Shown: positions 3,582 to 48,905 of the stretch, one piece after another | Numbering within the stretch: the first letter of the stretch is position 1 | How the letters are laid out: every line of letters starts with the position of its first letter | Assembly: GCA_017541205.1 (NCBI GenBank) | Contig: JAFXZO010000025.1 | Coordinates: 1 to 53,574 of the forward strand | Length of the DNA stretch: 53,574 nucleotides | Source: Clostridia bacterium | Lineage (GTDB): Bacteria; Bacillota; Clostridia; Christensenellales; Aristaeellaceae | Direction of reading: 5' to 3' | Notes under the pieces: model-generated | Seen by the model: the letters and a program-made list of their open reading frames with translations, nothing else | Database searches by the model: none | Told to the model about the DNA's origin: nothing | Made by a program: the position numbers and the translations under genes

Positions 3582-4667
3582 TCAGGCGGTGGGATCGATC
3601 ACGTTTTCCGTTTCCCCGTCAAAGAGATACACGCTTTCCAGCGGGATGGAGAAGGTGATCTCCGCGTCCGTTTCCGGGGTGTCGTGGCTGTCCACCTTCA
3701 GGATCGCGTGATCCTTGCCCGCGGCGACATACACGTTCGTATTGTCGCCGAGCATTTCGGTCAGCTCTACCCCGCAGGTGATCTGGTAGGCGTTTTCCTG
3801 TTTGCCCAGCTGAACGGCCTCGGGCCGGAACCCGAACACGATTTCCTTGCCTTCCCACGCTTTGATGCCGGGCAGCTTCCTGCCAAGCTCCAGCTTCGTT
3901 TCGCCAAAGGACAGCGCGCCGTCCGTGACCGCTCCGCGCAGGAAATTCATGGGAGGCTCGCCGATGAAGCCGGCCACGAACACATTTTGCGGCCGATAAT
4001 AGAGCTCATACGGCGTGCCGATCTGCATCACGTACCCGGCGCGCATGACCACGATCCGGTCGGCCAGCGTCCTGGCCTCGGTCTGGTCGTGGGTCACATA
4101 AATCGTGGTCGCGCCGGTTTCGCGGTGGATCTGGGCGATCTCGTAGCGCATGGTCACGCGCTGTTTGGCGTCCAGGTTGGAGAGCGGCTCGTCCATCAGA
4201 AACACGCCCACCTTGCGGATGATGGCGCGGCCGATGGCGACGCGCTGGCGCTGGCCGCCGGAAAGCGCGCGGGGCAGGCGGTCCAGATAATCCTTTAGGC
4301 CCAGAATGCCCGCCACGCGGTTCACCTTCTGCTCGATCACGTCCTCATCCACGCCCTGGAGAGTCAGACCAAAGGCGATATTATCATACACCGTCATCTG
4401 TGGATAGAGGGCGTAGCTCTGGAAGACCATGGCGATCTGCCTTTCGCGGGGCCCCCATTCGTTGGCGCGCTTGCCATCGATCAAAAACTCGCCGTTGGAA
4501 ATATCCTCCAGGCCGGCGATCATGCGCAGCGTGGTGGATTTTCCGCAGCCCGAGGGGCCAACGAAGACAACAAATTCCCCCTTCTCAATCTCCAGATTGA
4601 AATTGTGTACGGCGTGGAAGCCGTTGGGGTATATTTTGTTGATGTTTTTCAGCGTCAGATACGCCAT
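3582..4667 (-). CDS. CUT1 sugar ABC transporter ATP-binding protein, MsmX/UgpC type
   Basis: The 361-residue protein has an N-terminal nucleotide-binding domain with Walker A GPSGCGKST (about 37-45), Q-loop VFQSYALYP, signature LSGGQRQR and Walker B VFLMDEPLSNLD. A C-terminal TOBE/OB regulatory domain containing FGFRPEAV follows. Length and order match MsmX, which energises several sugar importers. A strong GGAGGAGGG site precedes the ATG. The gene stands alone, divergent from an AraC regulator. It is a plausible shared ATPase for the permease set at 21.2-23.1 kb, which lacks one; this is inference. Confidence 0.9.
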   Translation of the reverse strand: MAYLTLKNINKIYPNGFHAVHNFNLEIEKGEFVVFVGPSGCGKSTTLRMIAGLEDISNGEFLIDGKRANEWGPRERQIAMVFQSYALYPQMTVYDNIAFGLTLQGVDEDVIEQKVNRVAGILGLKDYLDRLPRALSGGQRQRVAIGRAIIRKVGVFLMDEPLSNLDAKQRVTMRYEIAQIHRETGATTIYVTHDQTEARTLADRIVVMRAGYVMQIGTPYELYYRPQNVFVAGFIGEPPMNFLRGAVTDGALSFGETKLELGRKLPGIKAWEGKEIVFGFRPEAVQLGKQENAYQITCGVELTEMLGDNTNVYVAAGKDHAILKVDSHDTPETDAEITFSIPLESVYLFDGETENVIDPTA

Positions 4668-4696: not shown

Positions 4697-4725
4697 TGGA
4701 CAAAACGGATGCGGTTTGGTATAAT
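4697..4725 (+). promoter_or_regulatory. Sigma-A promoter of the AraC-type regulator gene
   Basis: TGGACA (4697-4702), 17-nt spacer, TATAAT (4720-4725). It overlaps the in-frame ATG at 4709 and so rules that start out. The motif CAAAACGGAT (4701-4710) overlaps the -35 box. Confidence 0.72.
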
Positions 4726-4771
4726 CAGGACAGATCGCAAGGGCATGGAGCCCGGGAAAGGAGCGCGCACG

Positions 4772-5545
4772 GTGAACGATATCCTCTACGTCGGCAAGCA
4801 TCCCCAGCCCCGCGCGTCCTGGCGCAGGAACCAGGAAAGCTGGGAATTCGTTTACTGCGTTTCAGGCGAGGGAACACTGCGCTTTGAGGGCGAGGCCCTC
4901 CTGTGCAAGCGGGGCGACGTGGCGATCATCCCGCCGCAGTATCCCCACAGCTTTGTCCGTGAAAAGGGCAGCCGCTGCATCCATATCAGCATGGCCGCGC
5001 CGACGCTGTCGCCGGGCAGCCCCACGGTGATCCACGACGACGCGCATCATTTTCTGCTGGACGCAATGACCGCCGCGCTGTTTTACTTCCGCGGGAACAG
5101 GCCGGAAAGGGCCGTGCTGCTTTCCCTCTACAGCAGCGTCATCTGCTGCTATCTGGCCGCGTACCAGAACGTAAAGCGCAGGTCCCGCGTGGTGGAGGAG
5201 ATCGAAAAGCATATCCTGGCCCATTACACCGATCCCGGGTACGAGCTGGACCAGCACCTCAAATCCCTGCCCTTTAACTACGATTACCTGCGAAAGCTGT
5301 TCCAGAAGGAAATGCTGGTTACGCCCCATCAGTTTCTGACCGGCCTGCGGCTGCAAACCGCGGCGGAGGCCCTGACCAGCTACGGCCCCAAGGCGGGCAA
5401 CATCACCGACATCGCCCGGATGTGCGGCTTCCGGGAGCCGCTCTACTTTTCCCGGATGTTCAAGAAAAAGTACGGCGTCGCCCCGAGCTTTTATTTCCAG
5501 GCGCGCGCGGACGGGAAGGGCGGCCCTACGCGTTCAGACGCTTGA
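4772..5545 (+). CDS. AraC-family transcriptional regulator
   Basis: I place the start at GTG 4772, giving 257 residues. The longer frame from ATG 4709 begins inside the promoter, while GTG 4772 follows AAAGGAG at good spacing. The N-terminal half is a cupin-like ligand-sensing domain (EFVYCVSGEGTLRFEG, GDVAIIPPQYPH). The C-terminal half has two helix-turn-helix motifs ending in ARMCGFREPLYFSRMFKKKYG and PSFY. AraC regulators of this kind activate sugar-use operons on binding a sugar. Its 3' end overlaps the convergent GH105 gene by 20 bp. It may control the 14.9-5.5 kb operon, with which it shares a 10-bp promoter motif. Confidence 0.9.
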   Translation: MNDILYVGKHPQPRASWRRNQESWEFVYCVSGEGTLRFEGEALLCKRGDVAIIPPQYPHSFVREKGSRCIHISMAAPTLSPGSPTVIHDDAHHFLLDAMTAALFYFRGNRPERAVLLSLYSSVICCYLAAYQNVKRRSRVVEEIEKHILAHYTDPGYELDQHLKSLPFNYDYLRKLFQKEMLVTPHQFLTGLRLQTAAEALTSYGPKAGNITDIARMCGFREPLYFSRMFKKKYGVAPSFYFQARADGKGGPTRSDA

Positions 5546-6677
5546 TCTCCGTGTAACACAGCAGGAAGGGCGCAACGCCCTTGGCGTCGTCCTTCACGAC
5601 GGGCTCGGAGATGTAATAGGCGAAAGTGCCGTCGCGGCGGCGGTTGTTTTCCGGGCCGAGGCCCGCCACCAGGCAGATATGGTCCAGGCTCAGCTGATCG
5701 CCGGACAGGGCAAGGCAGGCGCGGCAAATGCCGTCAAAGGTCTTTTTGCCAAGCGCGGCAAAGCGCCTGTCCAGCGCGCCCAGGCGCGCGCCTTTGAGCA
5801 TGGCGTAGGCCAGCATGGAGCTGCCGCTGCTTTCCGGATAATTGCCTTCCCTTTCTCCCTGGTCCACCACCTGGAAATACATCCCGGTTTCCGCGTCCAT
5901 ATAGCGGGAAATATCGGCCATCAACCGGGCGAACACGCCGGTCAATTCCTCCTTATCCCGGGACGGGGGAAGGATCTCCGTCAGATCGGCCAGCGCGACG
6001 GAAAACCAGCCCATGGCCCTTAGCCAGAAGGAAGCGGAGCGCCCGGTCTCGGGATCGCACCAGAAGGCCTTCCTGCTCGCGTCATACCCGTGATAATAGA
6101 GGCCGGTTTTTTCATCCCGCATGCGGTCGCGCACCGTGAAAACCTGGCGGTACACATCGGCATAATCGCCGGCGCCGAAGGTTTTCTGGTACAGGGCGGA
6201 AAACGGCTGGGCCATGTAAACGCCGTCCAGCCACACCTGGTCGGGATAAATCTGCTTGTGCCAGAAGCTGCCCTCCCGGGTGCGGGGCTGGGCCTGCAGC
6301 TGCCGATAGAGGAAATCGGCGGCTTTTTTATATTTCTCCCTGCCCGTTTTTTCATAGAGCTCAAACAGCACCCGGCCTTCGTTGATGTCGTCCAGGCTGT
6401 GCTTGTCCACGGCATAGGTGCGGATGCTCCCGTCGTCGCCCACGAAGGAATCGATGAACCGATCCACGAATTGGAAATACTGTTCGTCCCCGTCGATCCG
6501 GGCAAGGGAAAGCAGGGCCGTCATCATACAGCCGTCGATGTAGTTCCAGTCCGCGGGCTTTCCCTGGCGGATGCGCTCCACGTTCCAGACCGTACGCTCC
6601 GGGGATGAACGTTCCACCAGGCTCCTGACAAACCGATCCAGGTCCTGATACAGCGTGCTGTCTGCCAAATGCTCCAC
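5526..6677 (-). CDS. Unsaturated uronyl/rhamnogalacturonyl hydrolase, GH105 (GH88-like)
   Basis: This 383-residue protein resembles the YteR/YesR family, which hydrolyses the unsaturated galacturonyl end left on pectin fragments by lyases. Family-like segments are WNYIDGCMMTALL, QVWLDGVYMAQPF with Asp151 at the likely catalytic position, FWLRAMGWF, and ESSGSSMLAYAMLKG near the end. No signal peptide is seen, so it should act in the cytoplasm on imported disaccharides. It is the last gene of the operon that starts at 14911. The GTG start at 6677 is uncertain: an in-frame stop lies two codons upstream, but the purine-rich site is very close to it. TTG at 6668 is the alternative. Confidence 0.85.
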   Translation of the reverse strand: MEHLADSTLYQDLDRFVRSLVERSSPERTVWNVERIRQGKPADWNYIDGCMMTALLSLARIDGDEQYFQFVDRFIDSFVGDDGSIRTYAVDKHSLDDINEGRVLFELYEKTGREKYKKAADFLYRQLQAQPRTREGSFWHKQIYPDQVWLDGVYMAQPFSALYQKTFGAGDYADVYRQVFTVRDRMRDEKTGLYYHGYDASRKAFWCDPETGRSASFWLRAMGWFSVALADLTEILPPSRDKEELTGVFARLMADISRYMDAETGMYFQVVDQGEREGNYPESSGSSMLAYAMLKGARLGALDRRFAALGKKTFDGICRACLALSGDQLSLDHICLVAGLGPENNRRRDGTFAYYISEPVVKDDAKGVAPFLLCYTEIKRLNA

Positions 6678-6680
6678 CCC

Positions 6681-7340
6681 CTAAATTCGTCTTGATGAAC
6701 GGGGCCTCCCGGCGTTCTTCCGGGCGTCCCCAACGATCCTGCCGGCCAGGCGTTTCGCCCCCAGCAGCAGCATATCCCACCCCGTCGCAAACAGCCCGAA
6801 CAGGATGGGCCCCACGCCCAGGGGAATGGTATCCTGCGCCTTGGTGACGGCAAGGACCGCGGCGTTGATAACGCTGTACGTGGTCACCACCAGGAACAAA
6901 AGCAGGAACGCGTACAATACGTTCAGCGGCAGGGAAACGAAGCCTTTCTTCGGAAACATCATCCAGCGGTCGTTGCCGCCGGGCGTTTTGGCGTAATAGC
7001 GGAAAATGGGGTTTACCATGAGGTCCGTCACGAACCCCAGGGCGATGCCCACGATGAACAGCAGATCCAATTGGCTTGGAACATACGTGCCGAGGCCCCA
7101 GAGGAAGAAGAAGCACACCATGCCCGAAAACCAAGCCTTGATCAGCGTGATCTTCACCCATTCTGTGAGATGGATCCGGGGGCCGGAGGTGTATTTTCGC
7201 AGCTCCCGCTCGCTCACGGGGGGCGAATTTTCCTGCGTGGCGTTCACCAGATCGTCCACGGCCTGGGTTTTCAGCTTATAATACTCCGCGGCTGCCCGTG
7301 GCTCTTCCCGGGCAAAGTCGTCTTTCCGTTTTTTGGCCAT
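6681..7340 (-). CDS. Unrecognised four-helix membrane protein (carbohydrate operon)
   Basis: I do not recognise this 219-residue protein. A long charged N-terminal tail (about 1-62) precedes about four hydrophobic helices near residues 67-84, 90-108, 137-157 and 172-195, and a basic C-terminus follows. There is no signal peptide and no catalytic motif I can name. It lies 3 bp upstream of the GH105 gene and 8 bp downstream of another small membrane protein, so co-transcription is nearly certain. A part in the transporter, as accessory subunit or assembly factor, is inference from position only. It does not resemble the DUF624 (YteU-like) proteins found in comparable Bacillus loci. Confidence 0.75.
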   Translation of the reverse strand: MAKKRKDDFAREEPRAAAEYYKLKTQAVDDLVNATQENSPPVSERELRKYTSGPRIHLTEWVKITLIKAWFSGMVCFFFLWGLGTYVPSQLDLLFIVGIALGFVTDLMVNPIFRYYAKTPGGNDRWMMFPKKGFVSLPLNVLYAFLLLFLVVTTYSVINAAVLAVTKAQDTIPLGVGPILFGLFATGWDMLLLGAKRLAGRIVGDARKNAGRPRSSRRI

Positions 7341-7348
7341 GCTGATGT

Positions 7349-7912
7349 TCAGGCGTCCTCGCCGCTGATGTCGATCTTGCCCATATCGGCGTTTTCTTCC
7401 ACCTGGATGTTGGTGTTGATCCTGCGCAGGAGCTTGCTGTATACCGGCAGCAGCGCGACCAGCGCAAGCCCGATGGCGAGCAGCGCGATATGGACGTGAA
7501 GCATGCGGGCGGCGTTGGCAATGAAGGCATTATTGCCGGTGGGATCAATGGCGTTTTCAGCGCGGGTGATGGCGGCGGTGATGCGGCCGCCGTAATAAAT
7601 ATCGCAGAAAAGCACGACGCCCGTCATCAGCAGCATCAGCACCAGCATGGGGATGTTCACCTTTTTGCGGTGCGGGAACGCGTTCAGAAAGCACACCAGC
7701 GACAGGATGGAAAACAGCATCGTCGCGAAGCCCGCCAGGCCCATGCCGGGGCCCTGGATGCGGGCGGTGGTGTTGGAAACCTGGGTCAGGTTCAGGGAAT
7801 AATACAGGAACGCGATGGCCAGCATCACCAGCGGGATCATATGCGGCTTGCGCTTCAAGCCAACCAGGCGTTTGCGGAGGAATTCTTTGAAGCCGGAAGG
7901 ATTCTTTTCCAT
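7349..7912 (-). CDS. Unrecognised four-helix membrane protein (carbohydrate operon)
   Basis: The 187-residue protein has a basic N-terminus, helix 1 (about 24-43), a short outside loop, helices 2 and 3 (about 56-78 and 86-105) joined by the basic turn FPHRKK, a loop of about 30 residues, helix 4 (about 137-160), and an acidic cytoplasmic tail. This plan is close to that of the protein at 9489-10079, including a histidine at the start of the last helix, so the two may be distant paralogues. It sits directly downstream of the operon's ABC ATPase gene (12-bp gap). Function unknown. Confidence 0.75.
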   Translation of the reverse strand: MEKNPSGFKEFLRKRLVGLKRKPHMIPLVMLAIAFLYYSLNLTQVSNTTARIQGPGMGLAGFATMLFSILSLVCFLNAFPHRKKVNIPMLVLMLLMTGVVLFCDIYYGGRITAAITRAENAIDPTGNNAFIANAARMLHVHIALLAIGLALVALLPVYSKLLRRINTNIQVEENADMGKIDISGEDA

Positions 7913-7924
7913 GTTTTTGCCTCC

Positions 7925-8986
7925 TTACCTGATCGCGTTCTCGGTTTCCTGGTCGAAGAAGTGCATCTTGTTGCATTGGAGCGTCACGCGGTCGCCGTTG
8001 CGGTAATTGGCCCAGCCGCGCAGCTTGGCGGTGACGCGCAGGTTATCGCCGATCAGGCCGTGCACGAGGGTGTTCATGCCCAGGTTTTCGTTGGTGACCA
8101 CCTTCATTTCCAGGCCCTGCCCCTCGCTGATGTCCTCGGGCCGCACGCCCAGGGTGACGCGCTTGCCCTTGTAGGGCGCAAGGAGCGCGCGCTGATCTTC
8201 GCTCAGCGCCACGGTAAAGCCCTTGCCGTGCAGCTGCCCGTCTTCCACCGCCACATCCAGCATGTTCATGGGCGGCAGGCCGATAAAGCTGGCGACGAAG
8301 ATATTGTTGGGCCGGTCGTAGAGCTCCAAGGGCGTGCCCACCTGCTGCACGTGGCCCATGGACATGCACACGATCCGGTCGGCCAGGGTGAGCGCCTCGG
8401 TCTGGTCGTGCGTCACATAGAGCATGGTGGCCTTGAGGCGCTTGTGCAGGAGCAGGATCTCGCGCCGGGTCGCGCCGCGGAGCTTCGCGTCCAGGTTGGA
8501 CAGCGGCTCGTCAAAGAGGAACACCTTGGGATTGCGCACGATGGAGCGCCCCATGGCCACGCGCTGGCGCTGGCCGCCGGACAATTGCGCCGGCTTTTTG
8601 TTGAGCTGGCTGGTCAGGTCCAGGATCTCCGCCGCGGCCAGCACCTTTTTATGGATCACGTTGGGGTTTTCCTTGCGCAGCGTCAGGGAAAAAGCCATGT
8701 TTTCATAAATGGTCATGTGGCCGTACAGGGCGTAATTCTGGAACACCATGGCCATATCGCGGTCCTTGGCGGGGGCCTGGGTGATGTCCTTTCCGTCCAG
8801 GAGCAGCTTGCCCTTGGAAATATCCTCCAGCCCGGCCACCATGCGCAGCGTGGTGGATTTGCCGCAGCCGGAGGGGCCCACCAGCACGATCAGCTCCCCG
8901 TCCTTCACTTCCAGGTTGAAATCGAACACGGCCTGCACGTTGTTATCGTAGATTTTATCGATATGCTGTAAGCTTAATTCCGCCAT
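7925..8986 (-). CDS. CUT1 sugar ABC transporter ATP-binding protein, MsmX/UgpC type
   Basis: A 353-residue ATPase with Walker A GPSGCGKST, Q-loop VFQNYALYG, signature LSGGQRQR, Walker B VFLFDEPLSNLD, the switch histidine in YVTHDQTEA, and a C-terminal TOBE domain (TLGVRPEDI). It is the second of three paralogues in the window. Here it is embedded in an operon, flanked by pairs of small membrane proteins, which suggests a dedicated role with the LplB/LplC permeases and the binding protein upstream. Gaps on both sides are about 12 bp. Confidence 0.92.
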   Translation of the reverse strand: MAELSLQHIDKIYDNNVQAVFDFNLEVKDGELIVLVGPSGCGKSTTLRMVAGLEDISKGKLLLDGKDITQAPAKDRDMAMVFQNYALYGHMTIYENMAFSLTLRKENPNVIHKKVLAAAEILDLTSQLNKKPAQLSGGQRQRVAMGRSIVRNPKVFLFDEPLSNLDAKLRGATRREILLLHKRLKATMLYVTHDQTEALTLADRIVCMSMGHVQQVGTPLELYDRPNNIFVASFIGLPPMNMLDVAVEDGQLHGKGFTVALSEDQRALLAPYKGKRVTLGVRPEDISEGQGLEMKVVTNENLGMNTLVHGLIGDNLRVTAKLRGWANYRNGDRVTLQCNKMHFFDQETENAIR

Positions 8987-8997
8987 GTTGCCCCTCC

Positions 8998-9492
8998 TTA
9001 AGACGCTGTTTTCAGGGCGCTGATGTGGGCTTCGAGGATGCGGCTCTTATGCAGATTGATATACCCCGCGGCGATCAGGCAGGCGGCGGACAGGGCAAGG
9101 CACGCCACCACGAACCAGTACTGCGGATTCTGCATCACAACGGTTTCCGTGCCGCTGATCTTGACCACGGCCTTGTGCGCCTGCGAAGGCAGGATGAAGA
9201 TGCGCGCCACCTGCATCGCGCCGACCGCGAACAGCAGATACGAATACCCCTTCTGGTAATTCTTGACGCCTTCGGACGCCAGGAACACCACCAGCATAAA
9301 CAGCAGGTTATACACGATGGAGCCGCCCACCAGGATCTGATAATACCAGGACGCCACATCGGATTTATATATGGAAACGAAATACAGAACATTCAGCAGG
9401 ATGCCCAGATAACACAGCCTGGACGACGCCTTGTTTTTTACGTAGCGCATCCTGTCCAAACGGATTTGACGATCATCCATGGCCTGCGTCAT
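8998..9492 (-). CDS. Unrecognised four-helix membrane protein (carbohydrate operon)
   Basis: This 164-residue protein has a charged N-terminus, helices near residues 26-43, 50-71, 83-100 and 124-146, and a short basic C-terminus. A polar loop of about 22 residues lies between helices 3 and 4. No family is recognised. Its start codon overlaps the stop of the preceding gene in an ATGA arrangement (9489-9492), indicating translational coupling and a likely fixed ratio of the two products. It is followed after 11 bp by the ABC ATPase gene. Confidence 0.75.
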   Translation of the reverse strand: MTQAMDDRQIRLDRMRYVKNKASSRLCYLGILLNVLYFVSIYKSDVASWYYQILVGGSIVYNLLFMLVVFLASEGVKNYQKGYSYLLFAVGAMQVARIFILPSQAHKAVVKISGTETVVMQNPQYWFVVACLALSAACLIAAGYINLHKSRILEAHISALKTAS

Positions 9493-10079
9493 GCGACCGC
9501 CTCCTTTCCCTGCTTCAAGAGGGTTTGTTCTTCTTTCATGAGCTTGCGTTTCCAGATCAGATTGGCGATGAGCAGCACGATGCCGAGCATCAGCAATCCG
9601 AAGGCCAGATAATGGATGTCGAACCAGAACGTGGATTCGGTGTACAGGGTCTTTTTCTTGGCTGCGTGCGCCGCCAATTCCTCAAAGTTGATTTGCAGGA
9701 ACTGGGCCTTGAACGCTTCGATCTGCCGATGCGCCCACACCGTAAAGGCGCATCCGCCCGCCGCGACCAGCCCCACGGAAACATAATTGCCGATGTAGTA
9801 TTTGCGCCGGCTGTGCGTATTGGTCACAAACAGCGTCAGGCACAAAAGGAGCATGCCGATGGACGCGTGAAGGAAATCTTTGTTGAAGCCCTGCATGTCG
9901 TAATAGATCCGGGACCCGGTCACGGTGGTCTTTTCCAGCTTTTCCGGGTTGCGGATCGTATCGTACAGCGCGTCGTAGAGGTCCGTCATGATGCCCAGGG
10001 AATAAAGGAAGATCAGCGCGCAGACAATCAGCATGCCGATGCATAGGATTTTCTGCAGGGCCACTTGTTTTTTGTACAT
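9489..10079 (-). CDS. Unrecognised four-helix membrane protein (carbohydrate operon)
   Basis: The 196-residue protein has helix 1 (about 12-33), an outside loop of about 35 residues, helices 2 and 3 (about 69-87 and 96-113) joined by a basic turn, an outside segment of about 35 residues rich in Lys and Glu, helix 4 (about 153-173), and a charged tail. It is the first of four small membrane proteins after the binding-protein gene. It is separated from that gene by a strong stem-loop and coupled by a 4-bp overlap to the next gene. Function unknown. Confidence 0.75.
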   Translation of the reverse strand: MYKKQVALQKILCIGMLIVCALIFLYSLGIMTDLYDALYDTIRNPEKLEKTTVTGSRIYYDMQGFNKDFLHASIGMLLLCLTLFVTNTHSRRKYYIGNYVSVGLVAAGGCAFTVWAHRQIEAFKAQFLQINFEELAAHAAKKKTLYTESTFWFDIHYLAFGLLMLGIVLLIANLIWKRKLMKEEQTLLKQGKEAVA

Positions 10080-10120
10080 GGTTGACTAACCTCCTGCGCT
10101 TGGAAGATCGGGGCCGCCGC

Positions 10121-10148
10121 CCGCCCGGGGCTTTTATGCCCCGGGCGG
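10121..10148 (-). terminator. Stem-loop between the binding-protein gene and downstream operon genes
   Basis: A perfect 11-bp stem, CCGCCCGGGGC and GCCCCGGGCGG, around a 6-nt loop. No U-run follows on the minus-strand transcript, so it is more likely an mRNA-stabilising or partial-attenuation structure than a full terminator. Confidence 0.6.
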
Positions 10149-10176
10149 ACGGTGTCAAGTCGGTTTGTTAAAAGGA

Positions 10177-12264
10177 TCAGAATTCGCTCTCGTAGTAATC
10201 CAGCAGAGCTTCCCAAGCGCCTTGCTTGATGCCCAGGTACTGGGCGCCCATCCAATTGTCCGCCACGGTGGCGGCGGCTTCTTCCGCGTCGCCCATGCCT
10301 TCGAGCACAAAGCCGCCGACGATGATATCAACCAGCACGTTCTCCTGGCCCTTGCCGCCCTGGAACTTGCTGTTCAGGTCGGTATATTCGCCCAGCTTCT
10401 GGTTTTCGGTCTTGGTGGTGGGCAGCACGGTGGGGATGGAGGTGTACCAGGGATTCTCGGCCACGGCCAGCAGCGGATGCTTGATGGTGCCCAGGCCGAT
10501 GGCGACGGAGATCTTGCCGGCGCCTTCGCGGCCCACTTCATGCGTGCACTGATACTCGAACGCCTGGCTCTTCATGAAGCTCAGGGTGGAGCCCAGATAC
10601 TGGCGGGCGTAGTTGGTGTAGTTGCCGGAGGCCTTGGCCCACAGCTCTTCGCGGGTGGCGTCGGCGATCTCGGGCATTTCCTTGCCGTTGAAGGTGAAGG
10701 TCACATAGGAGCCGTCTTCGTTGGTCTTGATGAAGGCGTCGGGGCCGTAGCTCATCAGGATGACGCCTTCTTCGGAGTACGCGTAGTCGATCAGGGCCAG
10801 GGCGGCGTACAGCTTGTTATCGTCCCCGGCGACACCGGCCTTGGAGATGCCCCAGCCGTCGGTCTTGACCGAGCGCCAGGATTCGGTGAAGCGCATGTAG
10901 ACGCCTTCTTCGTTGGTGCCGTCATACCAGCGGGCCACAGGCACCATAACGGCCATGTACTTTTCACCGGCTGCGTTATCCAGCTTGGTGTTCAGGATGG
11001 TCTGGGTCTGGTTGTAGTCATAGTGCATAAAGCCCAGATCCTGCTCCAGATAGTTGGCGGTCTTCACGTCTTCGCTGTTGACGAACGCCTGGGAAATCAG
11101 GCCCTCTTCGACCAGCGAGTGCATACGGGCCATGGCTTCGTAGGTGGCCACTTCCTGGCGGGCGTCATGCAGTTCGCCGTCGGAATCCAGGTACAGGTAA
11201 TCCTGGCGGGATTCCAGACCGCGCACGCCGAAGAGATGGCCGGCGAAGCGGAACATATCCACGCGGCGCTGGTTGTTGGCGTCTTCACGGGAGAACAGGC
11301 CCTGCACGGAATCGGTCCCGTTCAGGGTCTGGGGATTGGCGACCACGCAGCGCAGCAGGGCGACGAGCTCATCCGCGTCCCAGGCGGCGTTCTGGCCGAT
11401 GAAGAGGTTGGAACGGGCGGTGCCGTAATAGCCGTTGTACGCCTTGTCGATGTATTCGCGCAGCATGTTCACGGCTTCCACGCCGCTCATCACGCCCTTG
11501 TCGTTCATCAGGGCGATGATGTTGCCGGCGGCGTCGTAATCCTTGGTCACGATTTCGGTGGCGGTGCCTTCCAGGTTGGGGGTTTCAATTTCCACCTTGC
11601 CCTCGGTCGGCATGTAGGGGGTATACACGGGAGCGGCGATGTCCTTGCAGGCTTCGGCGGTGAATTCGCCTTCGCCGTCCAGCAGCTTCATTACCCAGTC
11701 CACGCGCATCAGGGGCATGCGTTCGATATCGTCCACGCCGTCAAAGTAGGGGCTGAAGTAGATGGCGCCGGTATCGGTGTCGCCGGTGATGGACAGGCGA
11801 ACGATGGGATTGGCTTCCAGATACGCCTTGAAGTTGGGCATCTGGTCCAGATAGTCGGCGATGTTCACGACCAGCTCCGCAATGCCGGCTTCGGTCAGCT
11901 TGGCGGCGGTGCCGCTGAGCACGTCCACCTGATCCAGCTGCGCCTTCCAGTAATCGAATTCGGCGGAAGCGCCGTTGCCCTGGTATTTATTTTCGATCAC
12001 GATGCCCAGCCTGTTCTGAACCTCCACCCAGGTGGGCTTCAGATCGCCGGAGTTGTAGGTCTTGCCGTCGGCCAGGGTGATGCCTTCGCCGGCGATTTCG
12101 GGGTCAAAGGTCAGGCCGGTCTTGGCGTTGTTGTAGCCGGTGGCCATGCGCAGCACGGTGCCTTCCGCGTAGGGAAGCGCGCTTTCCGCAGAGGCAACGC
12201 TGCACAGGGACAGCAGCATCAGCATCGCCATCAGCAGAGAAAGAACCTTGGTGTACCTTTTCAT
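10177..12264 (-). CDS. Secreted substrate-binding protein of the LplB/LplC-type ABC transporter
   Basis: The 695-residue protein starts with a signal peptide (MKRYTKVLSLL, hydrophobic core, likely cut after ASA near residue 26). There is no convincing lipobox, so it may be held at the surface by the permeases or released. Placement next to two LplB/LplC-type permeases and the mixed alpha/beta sequence with aromatic clusters mark it as a family 1 extracellular binding protein. It is clearly longer than typical LplA-like proteins of about 500-560 residues. The substrate is probably a pectin-derived oligosaccharide because the operon ends in a GH105 gene; this is inference. Confidence 0.82.
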   Translation of the reverse strand: MKRYTKVLSLLMAMLMLLSLCSVASAESALPYAEGTVLRMATGYNNAKTGLTFDPEIAGEGITLADGKTYNSGDLKPTWVEVQNRLGIVIENKYQGNGASAEFDYWKAQLDQVDVLSGTAAKLTEAGIAELVVNIADYLDQMPNFKAYLEANPIVRLSITGDTDTGAIYFSPYFDGVDDIERMPLMRVDWVMKLLDGEGEFTAEACKDIAAPVYTPYMPTEGKVEIETPNLEGTATEIVTKDYDAAGNIIALMNDKGVMSGVEAVNMLREYIDKAYNGYYGTARSNLFIGQNAAWDADELVALLRCVVANPQTLNGTDSVQGLFSREDANNQRRVDMFRFAGHLFGVRGLESRQDYLYLDSDGELHDARQEVATYEAMARMHSLVEEGLISQAFVNSEDVKTANYLEQDLGFMHYDYNQTQTILNTKLDNAAGEKYMAVMVPVARWYDGTNEEGVYMRFTESWRSVKTDGWGISKAGVAGDDNKLYAALALIDYAYSEEGVILMSYGPDAFIKTNEDGSYVTFTFNGKEMPEIADATREELWAKASGNYTNYARQYLGSTLSFMKSQAFEYQCTHEVGREGAGKISVAIGLGTIKHPLLAVAENPWYTSIPTVLPTTKTENQKLGEYTDLNSKFQGGKGQENVLVDIIVGGFVLEGMGDAEEAAATVADNWMGAQYLGIKQGAWEALLDYYESEF

Positions 12265-12334: not shown

Positions 12335-12370
12335 AGGAATGAGGGACATGAATTTCAATTCCTCATTCCT
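12335..12370 (-). repeat. Inverted repeat between permease and binding-protein genes
   Basis: AGGAATGAGG (12335-12344) and CCTCATTCCT (12361-12370) form a perfect 10-bp stem that overlaps the stop codon of the LplC-type gene. It may separate the expression levels of permeases and binding protein. The left arm lies in a short run of GAGGGATGAG-like repeats. Confidence 0.5.
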
Positions 12371-13253
12371 TCACGCCGCCGGCGTTGGTGCCCTTGGCGA
12401 AGTATTTCTGGATGAAGGGATAGATGATGAGGATGGGCACGATGGAGCATACGATCAGCGCGTAGATCATGGAGTCGGAGGCGTAGATTTCGGCCCAGCC
12501 GGTCATCTGGTCCGGGTCGGTATACATTTCCAATTGCAGGCGGATGAAGACCTGCAGGGGATGCTCGTTCTGGTTGGAGATCATCTGGCGCGCCCAGAAA
12601 TAGCCGTTCCAGCGGGAAATGGCGAAGAACAAGGACACGGTGGCGATGGTGGATTTGCTCATGGGGATATAGACCTTGCCCAGCACCTGGAATTCGCTCG
12701 CGCCGTCCACGATGGCGGCTTCCTCGATTTCGCTGGGCACGTTTTCAAACGCGTTGCGCAGAAGGATGATGTTCATCGCCGCCATGCCCATGGCGATGAC
12801 CACCAGCCATTTGTCGTCCATGATGCCCACCGCGCGGAACACCTTCTGCGTGTCCAGGTAGTTTAAGTACTGGGGCACGATGCCGGCGGAGAACCACATG
12901 GTGAACACCAGGAAGAAGTTGAAGCCCTTGCGGAACAGAAGGCGCTTTTTGCTCAGGGCGTACGCGCCCAGGATGGAAACGCCCAGGGCCCAGATCGTGC
13001 CGTAGAACGTGAGGAACAGGGTGTTGGAGTAGGCGTTCCAGAACATGTTGTTGCCGAACATTTTGGCGAACGCTTCAAACTGCACGTCCTTGGGGAAGAG
13101 CACCACCCGCCCGTATTCCACCGCCTCGCGGCCGCTGAGCGAAGCGCTGACGGCGTACACGAACGGATACAGGCAGGCCAGGGCAAACACGGTGAGCAGC
13201 GCGTAGCTGATGATCTTAAAGATCAGCTCGGAGATTTCCAGCTTTCTTTTCAT
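12363..13253 (-). CDS. Sugar ABC transporter permease, LplC/YtcP type
   Basis: A 296-residue integral membrane protein with six predicted helices and the coupling (EAA) loop EEAAIVDGASEFQVLGKVY near residues 187-205, which docks onto the ATPase. The end, NAGGVKE, is typical of LplC-like permeases. It lies 15 bp downstream of the LplB-type permease gene and upstream of the binding-protein gene. Confidence 0.9.
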   Translation of the reverse strand: MKRKLEISELIFKIISYALLTVFALACLYPFVYAVSASLSGREAVEYGRVVLFPKDVQFEAFAKMFGNNMFWNAYSNTLFLTFYGTIWALGVSILGAYALSKKRLLFRKGFNFFLVFTMWFSAGIVPQYLNYLDTQKVFRAVGIMDDKWLVVIAMGMAAMNIILLRNAFENVPSEIEEAAIVDGASEFQVLGKVYIPMSKSTIATVSLFFAISRWNGYFWARQMISNQNEHPLQVFIRLQLEMYTDPDQMTGWAEIYASDSMIYALIVCSIVPILIIYPFIQKYFAKGTNAGGVKE

Positions 13254-13268
13254 GCCGCAGCCACCTCC

Positions 13269-14324
13269 TTAATACAGCGACGTGTTGGCGGCCTTGCGGG
13301 CGATGGTGTTGGCCCCGATCACCAGCAGCATGCCGACCACGTTGTTCATCATTTCCGCCGCGCTGGCGATGCCCGTGCCCGCGCCGCCGGAGAGGCCCGT
13401 GCGATAGGACAGGGTGGAGATCACGTCCGCCGTCACGTAGGTTTTGGTGTTGTACAGCAGCAGGACCTTTTCATAGCCGATGTTGAGGAGGGAGCCGATG
13501 CGGGTAATCAGCATGATGACGATGGTGGACAGGATGGAGGGCAGCACCACGTAGCGCATCTGGGCCCACTTGTTCGCGCCGTCGATCTGCGCGGCCTCAT
13601 AGCTGGTGGGCGAAATGGCGATGATGGCCGCGAAGTACACGATACTGTCATAGCCCGCGCCTTCCCAGATGCCGCTGATCTGGTAAATGGCGCGGAAGAA
13701 GCTGGGGTTGTTGAGCAGGCCCGCGTTGCCGACCTCCTCGCTGATGAGGCCCAGCCGGACCAGCGCCTGGCTCACGATGCCCATCTGGCCGATGAGCGAG
13801 CCCTGCTTGACCAGCATCGTGACCAGGGAGGTCATGACGACGGTGGACATGAACTTGGGCAGGTAGGTGAGCACCTGGTAAACGCTGCGGGCCGCGTTGG
13901 AGCGGACCTCGTTAAAGAACAGGGCCAGGATGATGGGCATGGGGAAGCCGAAGCACAGCCCGTAAAAGCTGAGCAGGAAGGTGTTGCGCATGGCCATCCA
14001 GAAATTGGAGCTCAGGCTGTCCCCGCCGATCAGCAGGCGCTTAAAATAACTGAAACCGGAAAAGAGCTGTTCGCTCACCGGCAGCACCGTGTCCGACACC
14101 TTGAAGCAGCCCAGCAGCTCGTACATTGGAAAATACCGCCAGAACAGGAATACCAGCAGCATCGGCACCAGCATCAGATAGAGCCGCCAATCCTTCAGGA
14201 TCGTGCGCCCAACGTGGAGCCAGTAATGCTTTTCCACATCGTCGCGGACCGCCTGTTCCGGGTTTTCCCGATAGGCGCCGGTGGCTTTGTCGAGGATCAA
14301 ATAATCCCCCGCCTGACTCTTCAT
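13269..14324 (-). CDS. Sugar ABC transporter permease, LplB/YteP type
   Basis: The 351-residue protein has a hydrophilic N-terminal extension of about 48 residues, then six helices. The coupling loop YEAAQIDGANKWAQMRYVVL is clear. The tail with NTIARKAANTSLY resembles LplB-like permeases, which typically run about 300-330 residues, so the N-terminal extension is somewhat long. The start codon overlaps the stop of the upstream gene by 4 bp (ATGA). It pairs with the LplC-type permease to form the import channel. Confidence 0.9.
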   Translation of the reverse strand: MKSQAGDYLILDKATGAYRENPEQAVRDDVEKHYWLHVGRTILKDWRLYLMLVPMLLVFLFWRYFPMYELLGCFKVSDTVLPVSEQLFSGFSYFKRLLIGGDSLSSNFWMAMRNTFLLSFYGLCFGFPMPIILALFFNEVRSNAARSVYQVLTYLPKFMSTVVMTSLVTMLVKQGSLIGQMGIVSQALVRLGLISEEVGNAGLLNNPSFFRAIYQISGIWEGAGYDSIVYFAAIIAISPTSYEAAQIDGANKWAQMRYVVLPSILSTIVIMLITRIGSLLNIGYEKVLLLYNTKTYVTADVISTLSYRTGLSGGAGTGIASAAEMMNNVVGMLLVIGANTIARKAANTSLY

Positions 14325-14911
14325 CGATATCCTCCTCTTTCCTCCTCCTGCTCTCGCTGCACGCGGACCAGGTAATGGTACTGGTTTTCAAGCATTCCAT
14401 CCAGCCGCCGGGCGATCCAAACGATCACCAGCGTGAACAGGTCTGAAATCACGTCCGTGGTAAAAAAGCCGACGGCCTGCGCGGGCGCCGTCCCAAAAAA
14501 CAAAGAAACCAAGGCTCTTCCAAGCTGCATCAGCAGCACCGTTGCAAGGCCGTACAGCAGGGTTTTGAGCACGTCGTCCCGCGTTTTTTCCCGGCCGCCC
14601 AACCCCTTGATGAGCAAAAGCGAAAGCAGCGAAAGCAGGTTGCCCGCCCCGTAAATCACATACTGCGCGCCGGTCGCGCCGGACGCCCGGCACAGCGCCA
14701 GCCCGCCCAGCACCGCGTGGATCGCAGCCCAGGGGCCCCAGCGGAACATCACGATCGCGGTCACCGCCGGCACCACCGATACCGTATACGGCTCGTTGGG
14801 GAACCATCGGGTGGCGGCCGTTACCACGATCCATTCAAACACCGCCAGCATCACCGCGAACAGCGTCAGGTCGATGGCCCGGTACCGCCCCACGGTCCTT
14901 TGCCCATTCAC
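14321..14911 (-). CDS. Small membrane protein resembling an ECF-type S component
   Basis: The 196-residue protein has about six hydrophobic segments (near 12-33, 42-58, 61-75, 81-103, 114-139, 150-165). Its size, the opening RAIDLTLFAVMLAVFE and the small-residue-rich region around GPWAAIHAVLGGLA recall substrate-binding S components of energy-coupling-factor transporters. I cannot name a substrate. GTG 14911 follows GGGAGG at good spacing. It is the first gene of the operon and overlaps the permease gene by 4 bp, an unusual partner for a CUT1 transporter. The S-component reading is tentative; an unrelated membrane protein is possible. Confidence 0.5.
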   Translation of the reverse strand: MNGQRTVGRYRAIDLTLFAVMLAVFEWIVVTAATRWFPNEPYTVSVVPAVTAIVMFRWGPWAAIHAVLGGLALCRASGATGAQYVIYGAGNLLSLLSLLLIKGLGGREKTRDDVLKTLLYGLATVLLMQLGRALVSLFFGTAPAQAVGFFTTDVISDLFTLVIVWIARRLDGMLENQYHYLVRVQREQEEERGGYR

Positions 14912-15129: not shown

Positions 15130-16887
15130 TCATTTCACGTATTCGATGGCGCTCAGCGCGGCGATGCGGCCGAAAATGACGATATCGGCCACGGCGTTGC
15201 CGCCCAGGCGGTTGCCGCCGTGCACGCCGCCGGTGACCTCGCCCGCGGCGAAGAGGCCGGGGATCACTTTGCCTTCGGTATTGATGACCTCGGCGGCGGT
15301 ATTGATCTTGACGCCGCCCATGGTGTGGTGGATACCGGGAGCGATCTTGATGGCGTAGTAGGGAGGCGTGGTCAGATCGGCGTTCATGCCGGTGGTGCGG
15401 CCGAAGTCGGGATCGCGCTGGTTCTTGACGATCTCGTTCCAGTCGGCCAGGGTCTTGGCCAGGGTGGCGGGATCGATGCCCAGCTGCTCAGCCAGGCCCT
15501 CGATGGTGTCGGCCTGTACGGTGAGCTCGGCCTTCACGTATTTCTCGATGGCCTTTAAGTGGTCGCGCAGGTTCTGGTCAAACAGGATATAGGCGTACTG
15601 GCCTTCCTGCGCCAGCTCCGCGGCGGAAACCGCGTCGCGGGTGAGGAGCTCGTTGGTGAAGCGCAGGCCCTGCTGGTTCACCAAGATGGCGCCGTCGCCG
15701 CGCACGGATTCGGTAATCAGCATGGAGGTGGTCTGTTCCACGGTGGGATGGAGCTGGATCTGCTCGATATCCACCAGATCCGCGCCCAGGGCCTTCGCCA
15801 TCAGGATGCCGTCGCCGGTCGCGCCGGGGGCGTTGGTGGTCACGGTGCCCTGCAGGTCCGGCCGATATTCGGCGATCATGTCCAGGTTCGCGCCAAAGCC
15901 GCCGGTCGCCAGGACGACGGCCTTGCAGTTGAAGGTATAGAGCGCGTCCGCGCCTTCGGCCTTCACGCCGCAGATCTTGCCTTCCGCGTCAACGAGCAGC
16001 TCGGTCGCGGTGGTATTGAGCATCACTTCCACGCCGAGCTCGTCCAGCTTGGCGGAGAAGCGGTCCACCAGGTAGTTGCCCACGCCGGAGCCGTCCGCGG
16101 GCGCGTGGATGCGGTTCACGGAAGCGCCGCCGGAGAAGGAGATCTTGGGCAGCTCCGCGCCGATGGAATCCAGCCAGTCAATGGCGTCGGAAGAGCTGTT
16201 AGCCAGCATGGCGACCAGCTGCGGATCGTTGAGCGCATGGCCGCCCTGCATGGTATCGGCGGCGAAGAGCGCCTTGCTGTCCTCGATGCCCTGTTCCTTC
16301 TGATAGTGGGTCTCCGCGGCGTTCATGCCGCCGGTGGCCTTGGTGGTGTTGCCGCCCACATAAGGCATTTTTTCCAGGATCACGAAATCCTTGCCGGCCT
16401 GCTGGGCCATGATGGCCGCGGTCATGCCCGCGCCGCCCGCGCCGATGATGACGATTTCGGTGTCGATGGTCTTTTCTTCCTTGACGGCGTTTTCATCGCC
16501 GGTATCGCGCCGGTTCGCGTCCAGCGCGGCGATGTCCGCGCCCGCGGCTTCCAGGGCTTCCGTCGCCGCGGCGATGATGGCGTTGCTGCTCACGGTCGCG
16601 CCGCTCATGATGTCCACGTTGGGGGTCTGGGCGGTCAGGATCTCGTCCGCCAGGATGGACGCGGCGGCCCCGCCCAGCGTAGCCGTTTCGCCGGAAGCGT
16701 CGATGAACACGTTGGTGATTTCGCTTTCCGTCACGGTGATCTGCACTTTGATGGTGGAAAGCAGGCCCTGGGCCTCGGCTTCATAGGTGCCGGGGGTGAA
16801 CAGGCCTTCCGCCGGCAGCGCTTCCGCGAATGCGGACGCGCCGCACAGCAGCATCAGGGACAGGATCAGGCATACCAGTTTTTTCAC
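15130..16887 (-). CDS. Secreted FMN/FAD-dependent reductase (fumarate/urocanate reductase family)
   Basis: Starting at GTG 16887, which has GGAGGAG at good spacing, the protein has 585 residues. A signal peptide (likely cut after AFA near residue 21) is followed by an FMN-binding domain with DIMSGATVSS, whose Thr near residue 98 is the expected covalent FMN site. A flavoprotein domain with the FAD motif IIGAGGAGMTAA (about 149-154) comes next. FDQNLRDHLKAI carries an Arg at the position used as proton donor in fumarate reductases, and HHTMGGVKI is also family-like. It should reduce an unsaturated acid outside the membrane as a respiratory electron sink. The substrate (fumarate, urocanate, acrylate, cinnamate or other) cannot be read from the sequence. 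It has its own promoter and terminator. Confidence 0.88.
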   Translation of the reverse strand: MKKLVCLILSLMLLCGASAFAEALPAEGLFTPGTYEAEAQGLLSTIKVQITVTESEITNVFIDASGETATLGGAAASILADEILTAQTPNVDIMSGATVSSNAIIAAATEALEAAGADIAALDANRRDTGDENAVKEEKTIDTEIVIIGAGGAGMTAAIMAQQAGKDFVILEKMPYVGGNTTKATGGMNAAETHYQKEQGIEDSKALFAADTMQGGHALNDPQLVAMLANSSSDAIDWLDSIGAELPKISFSGGASVNRIHAPADGSGVGNYLVDRFSAKLDELGVEVMLNTTATELLVDAEGKICGVKAEGADALYTFNCKAVVLATGGFGANLDMIAEYRPDLQGTVTTNAPGATGDGILMAKALGADLVDIEQIQLHPTVEQTTSMLITESVRGDGAILVNQQGLRFTNELLTRDAVSAAELAQEGQYAYILFDQNLRDHLKAIEKYVKAELTVQADTIEGLAEQLGIDPATLAKTLADWNEIVKNQRDPDFGRTTGMNADLTTPPYYAIKIAPGIHHTMGGVKINTAAEVINTEGKVIPGLFAAGEVTGGVHGGNRLGGNAVADIVIFGRIAALSAIEYVK

Positions 16888-16915
16888 AGGCAACTCCTCC
16901 TCTATTCAATTGATG

Positions 16916-21111: not shown

Positions 21112-21255
21112 GCCCCCCTCCCGCATTTTTATGCCGAAGCATAGTTAGTTTTTGCACATTTTGTATTCGCTGCGGCACTTTTCGGAGCGGGCGGGAGTTG
21201 TTACAATTACATTATGGTCACATGGGGAGATACATGGCGCAAGGGAGGGATGAAT

Positions 21256-22218
21256 ATGACCGGGCTCGAGATGCGCGCTCCGCGCCGGGAAAACGCGTTC
21301 ATGCGCTGGCTGCACGGGTTTGTCGGGTATAAAAAGCATCTGGCCCTGACGCTGATGTTCCTCCCTGTGATCGTGTATTTTTTCATTTTCAAGTATATCC
21401 CCATGGGCGGCATCGTGATCGCCTTCAAGAATTACAAAATCAGGCAGGGCATTTTCGGCAGCGCCTGGTGCGGGCTGGACAACTTTACCAAGGCGTTCAA
21501 TACGCCCACGTTCGCGCGCTCCGTCCGAAATACGCTGGTGATCAGCGGGCTCAAGCTGCTCTTCGGCTTCCCCGCGCCCATCATCCTGGCGCTCATGCTC
21601 AACGAGGTGACGCATGTCCGCTTCAAAAAAACGGTGCAAACGATCACCTACCTGCCCCATTTCCTCAGCTGGGTCGTGCTGGCCGGCATGTTCCAGCAGC
21701 TGCTTTCGCCCAATAACGGCGCGGTGAACGCGTTGCTCAGGCAGCTGTTCGGGATGAAGGAGTCCATCTATTTCCTGGGCAGCAACCAGTATTTCCGCGG
21801 CACGCTGATCGTGACGGATATCTGGAAAAACGTGGGCTGGTCCTCCATCCTGTATCTGGCCACGATATCCGGCATCGATCCGGCGCTCTATGAGGCGGCG
21901 ACCGTGGACGGCGCGTCCCGCTGGCAGTGCACAAGGTATATTACCATCCCTTCGCTGGTGAGCACCATCGTGATCATGCTGATCCTGAGCATCGGCTCCA
22001 TTATGGACGCGGGGTTTGACCAGGTGTTCAACCTCTACAACAGCGCCGTGTACCAGACGGGCGACATCATCGACACCTACGTATACCGCTACGGCCTCGG
22101 GGATATGAAGTATTCCCTGGCGACGGCGGTCGGCCTCTTCAAGAACGTGATCGCCTTCGTGCTGGTGGTGGGGACCAATCTGATCACCCGCAAAATCAGC
22201 GGCGACGGCATCTGGTAA
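21256..22218 (+). CDS. Sugar ABC transporter permease, LplB/YteP type
   Basis: ATG 21256 is chosen because GGGAGGG lies 6-7 nt upstream; the ATG at 21250 is too close to it. The 320-residue product has six helices. LTLMFLPVIVYFFIF and KYIPMGGIVIAFKNYKIRQG are typical LplB sequence, and the coupling loop is YEAATVDGASRWQCTRYITI. The ending KISGDGIW is typical. It is the first gene of a plus-strand operon with an LplC-type permease and a binding protein. No ATPase gene accompanies it. Confidence 0.92.
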   Translation: MTGLEMRAPRRENAFMRWLHGFVGYKKHLALTLMFLPVIVYFFIFKYIPMGGIVIAFKNYKIRQGIFGSAWCGLDNFTKAFNTPTFARSVRNTLVISGLKLLFGFPAPIILALMLNEVTHVRFKKTVQTITYLPHFLSWVVLAGMFQQLLSPNNGAVNALLRQLFGMKESIYFLGSNQYFRGTLIVTDIWKNVGWSSILYLATISGIDPALYEAATVDGASRWQCTRYITIPSLVSTIVIMLILSIGSIMDAGFDQVFNLYNSAVYQTGDIIDTYVYRYGLGDMKYSLATAVGLFKNVIAFVLVVGTNLITRKISGDGIW

Positions 22219-22233
22219 AGGGGGCGGCCGGAT

Positions 22234-23115
22234 ATGACCCAGAAAAAAATGACGGTCGGCAAGGCGATCATCTACCTTTTGCTGACGCTGCTGAGCGCTT
22301 CCATCGTGCTGGCCTTCTGGCACCTGCTGAACCTGAGCTTTTCTCCCAGCTATATCGCCACCAAGGGCGGGCTGCTGCTGTACCCAAAGGACGCGACGAT
22401 AGACAATTACGCCCGGGTGATTGGCAACCGCTACATCTGGCTGGGGTATAAAAACACGATCATCCGCACGGTGGTCGGCACGGTGCTGCAATTGTTCTTT
22501 ACCGCGATGGGCGCCTACGTATTAAGCAAGCGCTTTTTCCCGCACCGCACGTTCTGGACGCTCTTCATCGTCTTTACGATGTTCTTTTCCGGCGGATTGA
22601 TCCCCACCTACCTGCTTGTCAAAGACCTGGGCCTGCTCAACACCTATGCTTCCATGATCCTGCCGGGCTTCATCAGCGCGTACAACATGGTCATCATGCG
22701 CAACTATTTCCAGTCCCTGCCCGAGGAGATCGAGGAAAGCTGCCTGATCGACGGCGCGGGCCGGTTCCGCATTTTTTTGCAGATCGTGCTGCCCCTGTCC
22801 AAGCCGATCCTGGCCACGGTGGCGCTGTGGCTGGTGGTGGGGCATTGGAACAGCTGGTTCGACGTGCTGATCTATATTGCGGACGATACCAAGTTTACCC
22901 TGCAGATCGTGCTGCGCCGCATCATCATCACCGGCTCCAAGGAGATATTGGATACCAGCGCAGCGGCCAACGCGGCGGAAATGGAAACCGTCGTTTCCTC
23001 CGAGGGCCTCAAGGCCGCCTGCATTTTCGTTACCACCCTGCCCATCCTCTGCGCGTACCCCTTCGTGCAGAAGTTCTTCGTAAAGGGGATCATGATCGGA
23101 TCCTTGAAAGGATGA
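22234..23115 (+). CDS. Sugar ABC transporter permease, LplC/YtcP type
   Basis: The 293-residue protein has six helices, the family segment FSGGLIPTYLLVKDLGLLNT, and the coupling loop EESCLIDGAGRFRIFLQIVL. The C-terminal KFFVKGIMIGSLKG is the canonical LplC ending. It lies 15 bp after the LplB-type gene and 34 bp before the binding-protein gene. Confidence 0.93.
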   Translation: MTQKKMTVGKAIIYLLLTLLSASIVLAFWHLLNLSFSPSYIATKGGLLLYPKDATIDNYARVIGNRYIWLGYKNTIIRTVVGTVLQLFFTAMGAYVLSKRFFPHRTFWTLFIVFTMFFSGGLIPTYLLVKDLGLLNTYASMILPGFISAYNMVIMRNYFQSLPEEIEESCLIDGAGRFRIFLQIVLPLSKPILATVALWLVVGHWNSWFDVLIYIADDTKFTLQIVLRRIIITGSKEILDTSAAANAAEMETVVSSEGLKAACIFVTTLPILCAYPFVQKFFVKGIMIGSLKG

Positions 23116-23149
23116 AATCCTTTCAAAAATAAATAAGGAGGTCAAAGAC

Positions 23150-43447: not shown

Positions 43448-44575
<1,128 letters not shown>

Positions 44576-44600
44576 GAGCTTTTATCTCCTTTCAATATTG

Positions 44601-44804
44601 CATCCGCAGCCTCAATCGGCGCGGCTCTCCGCAGGAGAGACCGCTTGTTTCGGCTGATTTCACCTCGGATAGGATTTCCGCCACTGGCGGCTATCCGAGG
44701 TTCATCCGCAGCCTCAATCGGCGCGGCTCTCCGCAGGAGAGACCGCTTGTTTCGGCTGATTTCACCACCGATTTTTTGCCGCCACTGGCGGCAATCGGTG
44801 GTTC
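44601..44804 (-). repeat. Two tandem 102-bp repeats with covarying hairpins
   Basis: Copy 1 is 44601-44702 and copy 2 is 44703-44804. The first 64 bases are identical. Each copy then ends in a hairpin whose outer arms differ in sequence but pair perfectly within the copy: CCTCGGATAG with CTATCCGAGG in copy 1, and CCACCGATT with AATCGGTGG in copy 2. Both share an inner CCGCC-ACT-GGCGG stem. The common part also has a CTCTCC-GCA-GGAGAG stem. The element lies between the malG-like stop codon and the ATPase gene, within the operon transcript. Confidence 0.9.
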
Positions 44805-47231: not shown

Positions 47232-47258
47232 GCCTGTGATCCGCTCCTTTTTACGAGA

Positions 47259-47292
47259 ACGGCCGGAACCAATGAACATTGGCTCCAGCCGT
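47259..47292 (-). terminator. Stem-loop between binding-protein and MalF genes
   Basis: Outer arms ACGGC/GCCGT and inner arms CCAAT/ATTGG with a GAAC loop. No U-run follows; likely attenuates or protects the upstream binding-protein message, as known for malE-malF. Confidence 0.5.
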
Positions 47293-47339
47293 CTGGTTTA
47301 CCGATTGCCGGAATCAGTCAATCGGGCGCTTGGCTTTGA

Positions 47340-48827: not shown

Positions 48828-48905
48828 GACGGATCATCCTTTCTTTTGCGCACGGAAAAAGCCATCACAGTTTTCGCCCTTCCGTGTGATTTGTCTTCAT
48901 GTAGT

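Follow-up and report, generated by a model that had tools for sequence, protein, structure and literature searches.

The window analysed here is the whole of contig JAFXZO010000025.1 (assembly GCA_017541205.1, Clostridia bacterium, family Aristaeellaceae; 53,574 nucleotides). It carries on its minus strand an operon that we read, with about even confidence and from sequence comparison, as a CUT1-type ATP-binding cassette (ABC) importer for pectic oligogalacturonides accompanied by five conserved accessory membrane proteins. The genes follow the order orf14.9-PermB-PermC-SBP-M4-M3-ATP-M2-M1, in which PermB and PermC are the permeases, SBP is the solute-binding protein, ATP the ATPase, and orf14.9 and M1 to M4 the membrane proteins in question. 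That these genes form one operon system and occur together is well supported, and we infer that the five proteins assemble physically with the importer. A more far-reaching proposal, which we hold only tentatively, is that the operon represents a new architectural class: a single machine importing long acidic pectin chains, with one or two ATPases and at least seven different membrane subunits, two of them being the permeases and five belonging to new families.

A first-pass annotation of the window had described four unrecognised four-helix membrane proteins around an ABC ATPase in a pectin-type CUT1 operon. All four are confirmed by open reading frames (ORFs) and hydropathy, but the count is five, orf14.9 having been missed. 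A pectin-type CUT1 operon is supported: it encodes two BPD_transp_1 permeases and a UgpC/MalK-type ATPase with a C-terminal OB domain (OB_MalK, 53.7 bits in Pfam; UgpC, 444.5 bits against a cut-off of 432 in NCBIfam) and has a GH105 gene as neighbour. Equally accurate was the statement that gaps do not exceed 12 bp and that one pair overlaps by 4 bp: the ORF coordinates give this overlap for M4/M3 and gaps of 11 (M3-ATP), 12 (ATP-M2), 8 (M2-M1) and 3 bp (M1-GH105). Junctions as tight as these, one of them an overlap, together with the placing of ATP between M3 and M2, suggest that the parts are produced in a fixed ratio to one another.

Conservation and distribution of the gene block

A contig scan with M2 matched 193 relatives, of which 80 loci were kept, all from metagenome-assembled genome (MAG) or uncultured records and many with titles naming ruminant gut sites; the named relatives include no cultured bacterium. 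All nine genes are complete in 57 of these 80 loci, and the M4/M3 overlap is 4 bp in 57/57 (this count and the hhalign family alignments used below exclude ORFs truncated at a contig end or shorter than 80% of the full length). Where the contig was long enough for a junction to be counted, the expected neighbour was kept for orf14.9 in 57/57, PermB in 57/58, PermC in 61/61, SBP in 64/64, M4 and M3 in 73/73 each, ATP in 74/74 and M1 in 78/80 loci; in the three exceptions (PermB once, M1 twice) an ORF is over-extended, and the expected gene is nevertheless present at its position. A related-genome search yielded 30 loci, 24 close and 6 deep. The two sets are not independent, because 9 of these 30 loci share their M4 gene with a contig-scan locus. 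Among the 23 countable close loci (L039, which lacks M2 at a contig end, was left out, and L063 ends inside M2), PermB was kept in 15/16 and M1 in 21/23, two misses being over-extended ORFs and one a contig end, and all other junctions were intact. Every junction is also kept in 6/6 deep loci, though M2 and M4 are there only 24-34% identical to those of the window, and L238, whose genome belongs to a different family of the class, has the whole block together with GH28 and a second ATPase gene (ATP2). Three contigs of one MAG (CAMMYM; L085, L092 and L093) each carry the block, through either duplication or mixed assembly.

Co-occurrence of the quartet M1 to M4 with the same SBP and ATPase had been set beforehand as a refutation test for the first-pass annotation; the order proved to be kept, and of 60 related genomes, the window's own among them, 24 have M4 and precisely the same 24 have SBP. 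The existence of homologs in relatives, together with ratios of nonsynonymous to synonymous substitution (dN/dS) of 0.07-0.30 against three relatives, indicates that M1 to M4 are real genes; across all nine block genes the ratio is 0.06-0.33. Further afield matches are sparse: counting the own genome each time, M2 occurs in 9/200 genomes of the order and in 5/391 of the class (one match judged chance), M4 in 4/381 of the class, and M2 in 2/398 of the phylum sample, namely the own genome and one doubtful match. An M2-like match in G464 (24%, with two in-frame TAG codons) was judged chance, no other core gene being present in its 3.4-kb locus.

Within its own genome, whose assembly is 85% complete, PermC has 27 further matches (best 38% identity), while M4 matches only itself at E-values up to 10. 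Neither eleven other PermB-PermC pairs in the regions fetched nor two further pairs of the window have a homolog of M1 to M4 or orf14.9 at E 1e-3 in the fetched stretch. Short ORFs with at least three hydrophobic segments were seen in 3 of 12 regions (L229, L232 and L234), at distances from the permeases of roughly 1 kb upwards. The presence of an ATPase beside the permeases is not unique to the block, since an ATPase gene (43448-44575) also accompanies another of the window's transporters. The window's two further ABC sugar importer loci, at 21214-24790 and 43448-48833, are without extra membrane proteins.

Table 1. Genes and other features of the operon and its surroundings in the window
Feature	Positions	Strand	Basis
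orf14.9, unknown membrane protein, first gene of the conserved block	14321-14911	minus	no Pfam family; NCBIfam below cut-off
PermB, ABC importer permease	13269-14324	minus	BPD_transp_1, E 1.1e-9 (Pfam, over cut-off)
PermC, ABC importer permease	12363-13253	minus	BPD_transp_1, E 1.5e-11 (Pfam, over cut-off)
SBP, large solute-binding protein, 695 aa	10177-12264	minus	signal peptide, no lipobox (N-terminus read by eye)
Hairpin in the SBP-M4 gap, G+C-rich, 15 bp, no T run	10117-10152	minus	own and relatives' gaps
M4, membrane protein with four transmembrane segments	9489-10079	minus	ORF, averaged hydropathy
M3, membrane protein with four transmembrane segments, 4-bp overlap with M4	8998-9492	minus	ORF, averaged hydropathy
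ATP, UgpC/MalK-type ATPase between M3 and M2	7925-8986	minus	ABC_tran and OB_MalK (Pfam), UgpC (NCBIfam)
M2, membrane protein with four transmembrane segments, conserved basic N-terminus	7349-7912	minus	ORF, averaged hydropathy, alignment
M1, membrane protein with four transmembrane segments, conserved cytoplasmic N-terminal segment	6681-7340	minus	ORF, averaged hydropathy, alignment
GH105 (GH88/105 family), presumed unsaturated galacturonyl hydrolase	5526-6677	minus	Glyco_hydro_88, E 7.7e-81
AraC-type regulator	4709-5545	plus	HTH_18 and cupin domains (Pfam)
ATP2, second UgpC-type ATPase	3582-4667	minus	UgpC subfamily over cut-off

Directly upstream of the operon lies a gene for an FAD-binding reductase with an FMN_bind domain and a signal-like N-terminus (15130-16893).

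Five membrane proteins without a Pfam or NCBIfam family

Simple hydropathy averaged over each family gives four transmembrane segments in M1 to M4 and five in orf14.9. M1 to M4 are predicted to have both termini in the cytoplasm, because positive charge lies on the N-terminal, 2-3 and C-terminal sides. None of the five proteins of the window reaches a Pfam or NCBIfam cut-off, so that M1 to M4 remain without a recognised family, as originally described. When up to 29 relatives of each family were compared with Pfam, scattered weak matches appeared: EI24 in 5/28 M2 members (best E 1.8e-4, the lowest of all, in a listing without cut-off status), DUF6057 in 16/28 M2 members (best 8e-4), SpoIIIAC in 10/29 M4 members (best 7e-4), DUF7641 in 9/28 M3 members (best 9e-4) and ECF_trnsprt in 1/29 orf14.9 members (E 0.71). 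The M4 and M2 family profiles found nothing among PDB sequences at E 5, and no relative of M4 was found in viral contigs. A resemblance of orf14.9 to EMC4 in the PDB profile search (E 0.004 over 56 positions) was judged chance. Membership of DUF624 (YesL-type) had been denied by the first-pass annotation, and this is supported: M1 to M4 have no such Pfam match and reach hhalign probabilities of 0.1-1.1% against 18 DUF624 proteins of relatives, taken from 19 loci of which one was skipped. In this they differ from the DUF624 proteins presumably found at the YtcQP-YteP and YesOPQ pectin-importer loci of Bacillus subtilis.

M2 and M4 had been thought to share a plan. Four helices and a basic turn between helices 2 and 3 are indeed present in both, but this topology is common to all four M proteins and kinship is not borne out: hhalign gives at most 0.8% for each pair among M1 to M4, and the idea of one duplicated family was rejected. 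With orf14.9 included no pair exceeds 2.0% probability, against 94% for the pair PermB-PermC. The histidine noted early in the last helix of both proteins stands for M2 (H141, conserved in at least 95% of 112 rows), whereas in M4 (H156) it is conserved among close relatives only and not in the diverse set. In M1 and M2 positions identical in 95% of rows fall in the cytoplasmic N-terminus, and in M4 they fall in the 2-3 loop and the outside loops.

Probable substrate and proposed partners of the importer core

The genes downstream of the block belong to a pectin context. Within 7 kb downstream, 58 contig-scan loci include GH105 in 55, GH28 in 33, KduI in 22 and a KduD-like dehydrogenase in 18; a KDPG aldolase gene lies downstream in 9 of the 80 loci, and GH28 and GH105 are both found downstream of M1 in 6/6 deep loci. 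For GH28, KduI, GH4, short-chain dehydrogenase and KDPG aldolase a single representative of each was verified with Pfam, and we take the names KduD and KdgK to fit the neighbour genes concerned. No N-terminal hydrophobic stretch is present in 63 GH28 and 96 GH105 proteins; these enzymes are thus probably cytoplasmic, and oligomers must therefore be imported. From the GH28, GH105 and KduI neighbours we infer that oligogalacturonides are the substrate.

If the five proteins are subunits, SBP would capture oligogalacturonides and pass them to PermB and PermC, import being driven by ATP, perhaps together with ATP2. Around this permease/ATPase core, orf14.9 and M1 to M4 would assemble in fixed proportions, with M2 and M4 as the likeliest direct partners, and may provide a wider, more stable or gated path for long acidic substrates, which GH28 and GH105 would then cleave inside the cell.

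Correlated divergence offers some information on these contacts. The best covariation partner of ATP is M2 in 467 of 500 bootstraps (57 loci), with a difference between M2 and the best permease of 0.004 to 0.097. When the set is narrowed to the 30 loci with GH105, ATP2 and AraC as well, partial correlations of M4 and M2 with the permeases are 0.63-0.75. Several observations weigh against the five proteins being subunits of a pectin importer. In the same 30 loci, controlling for neighbours puts PermC (0.64) ahead of M2 (0.59) as the partner of ATP, and without this control the soluble enzyme GH105 correlates with ATP (0.80) about as well as M2 (0.81) and PermC (0.80) do. Partial correlations of M1, M3 and orf14.9 with the permeases are only 0.29-0.40, and linked inheritance could be the source of both the fixed order and the correlated divergence. 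Stronger conservation of cytoplasmic than of outside positions is clear for M4 only (shifts reaching the observed value: M4 6/195, M3 47/163, M2 33/186, M1 35/218). Finally, the substrate is deduced from neighbour genes, and the window itself has no GH28 between M1 and GH105. The covariation evidence is mixed; it points to M2 and M4 as partners of the core without settling the partnership. The larger assembly proposed by the first-pass annotation stays the best reading, albeit a deduced one.

The low values for M1, M3 and orf14.9 are also what one might cite for an alternative that we regard as rather unlikely, in which the five proteins form a separate membrane device for the same substrate (a sensor, a regulator, a membrane chaperone or a system of pectin handling) and are not importer subunits. 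Other CUT1 systems of the genome manage without them, and the contact with the importer proposed above is a prediction from sequence. However, a separate device would fit poorly with an ATPase embedded between M3 and M2, with the short gaps in countable loci and with the covariation of M2 and M4 with the permeases.

An ATP2 gene lies within 7 kb downstream of M2 in 58/58 countable contig-scan loci, and an importer with two ATPases is possible. This regular presence of two ATPases at close loci also bears on an improbable reading in which ATP powers a second, split ABC transporter whose membrane part consists of M1 to M4, perhaps with orf14.9, and PermB and PermC are served by ATP2. One ABC-2 permease, an ABC_tran_2 protein from another class (L192, 607-2271), has where its second half begins a stretch similar to the N-terminus of M2 (hhalign 86%, 66 columns), and the M2 hidden Markov model finds one of the 398 genomes of the phylum sample at E 1e-4, the own genome being excluded as a test. 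Against 18 ABC_tran_2 proteins related to that permease, however, M2 reaches only 25.7% over 24 columns and M1, M3 and M4 at most 1.0%, with no HMMER match in the reverse search. ATP2-like genes occur within 7 kb in only 2/6 deep loci, ATP has the MalK-type OB domain of importers of the PermB/PermC kind, and ATP covaries with PermC.

Binding protein, known systems and significance

SBP itself matches no Pfam family at E up to 1. Against the PDB its family profile finds AlgQ1 (E 1.3e-6, over part of the protein, best stretch 117-190) and the family 1 binding protein 5gub (E 0.003), which we take to be the uronide-binding Smon0123. In the SBP-M4 gap a hairpin with a stem of at least 8 bp is present in 52/64 loci, with a T run in 2/64, as against 6/42 PermC-SBP gaps (gaps below 30 bases left out); a possible effect is protection of the upstream message, which would yield an excess of SBP.

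The SBP of the window has no lipobox, and the 85%-complete genome yielded no Omp85 protein, so that retention of SBP at the cell calls for an explanation. Together with the conserved outside loops of M4, where 13 of 80 outside positions are identical in 95% of rows, this could speak for a docking device in which the membrane proteins tether SBP or the cell surface, a role that we consider very improbable. Among the 12 putative binding proteins elsewhere in the genome, recognised by position, length and signal peptide, 11 also have no lipobox-like match, and no M homologs lie beside their permeases. Conversely, the block is combined with a clear-lipobox SBP in L121, L137, L144 and L147 and in the deep loci L054, L056 and L057; only clear cases were used, as the lipobox pattern (28/64 SBPs) overcounts: many of its matches fall within the hydrophobic stretch, and some SBPs had their start placed too far downstream. 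The block thus does not track the anchoring mode of SBP, which makes a docking role unlikely. No S-layer or surface-attachment domain was detected in M1 to M4 or SBP in Pfam up to E 1, and the S-layer or surface docking device suggested at first gains no support. The predominance of putative binding proteins with a plain signal peptide and no lipobox (10177-12264, 23108-24790 and 47340-48833 in the window; L225-L236) is unusual for a Clostridia genome.

Known importers provide partial parallels. In B. subtilis, YtcQP-YteP and YesOPQ are CUT1-type importers for galacturonan and rhamnogalacturonan, which resemble the block in having one SBP and two membrane domains but are driven by the shared ATPase MsmX, and the passages that describe them mention no such membrane proteins (PMC5730181). 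Among the open-access literature matches listed, no title or abstract start describes a block of this kind; subscription papers fall mostly outside this scope. TogMNAB, the oligogalacturonide importer of enterobacteria, agrees with the block in transporter type and in the substrate proposed here and is not known to have more than the standard four kinds of subunit. The alginate importer AlgS-AlgM1M2, with AlgQ1/AlgQ2, is likewise not known to have extra membrane subunits; its substrates are uronide oligomers, and the profile of the block's SBP matches AlgQ1 in part. Energy-coupling factor (ECF) transporters contain small membrane subunits, among them the S component, and are similar to the block in this respect and in having two ATPases. 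By eye, orf14.9 appeared S-like, but this candidate was rejected at hhalign 0.5% against an alignment of 23 S-component proteins of relatives, one of 24 loci having been skipped, and at most 1.3% against single members, a comparison that lacked a control showing that S components of very distant kinship would be recognised; the block differs further in its CUT1 permeases and SBP.

The accepted picture of a type I ABC importer has four kinds of part, and the block, if our reading is true, would add real subunits to it and assign a function to five families of membrane proteins that are named by no model in Pfam or NCBIfam. Should the operon indeed represent a new architectural class, the textbook rule of one SBP, two permeases and an ATPase would be broken in a group of rumen and gut Clostridia. 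The subunit role is directly testable, and it is relevant to the uptake of pectin fragments by uncultured bacteria of the rumen.

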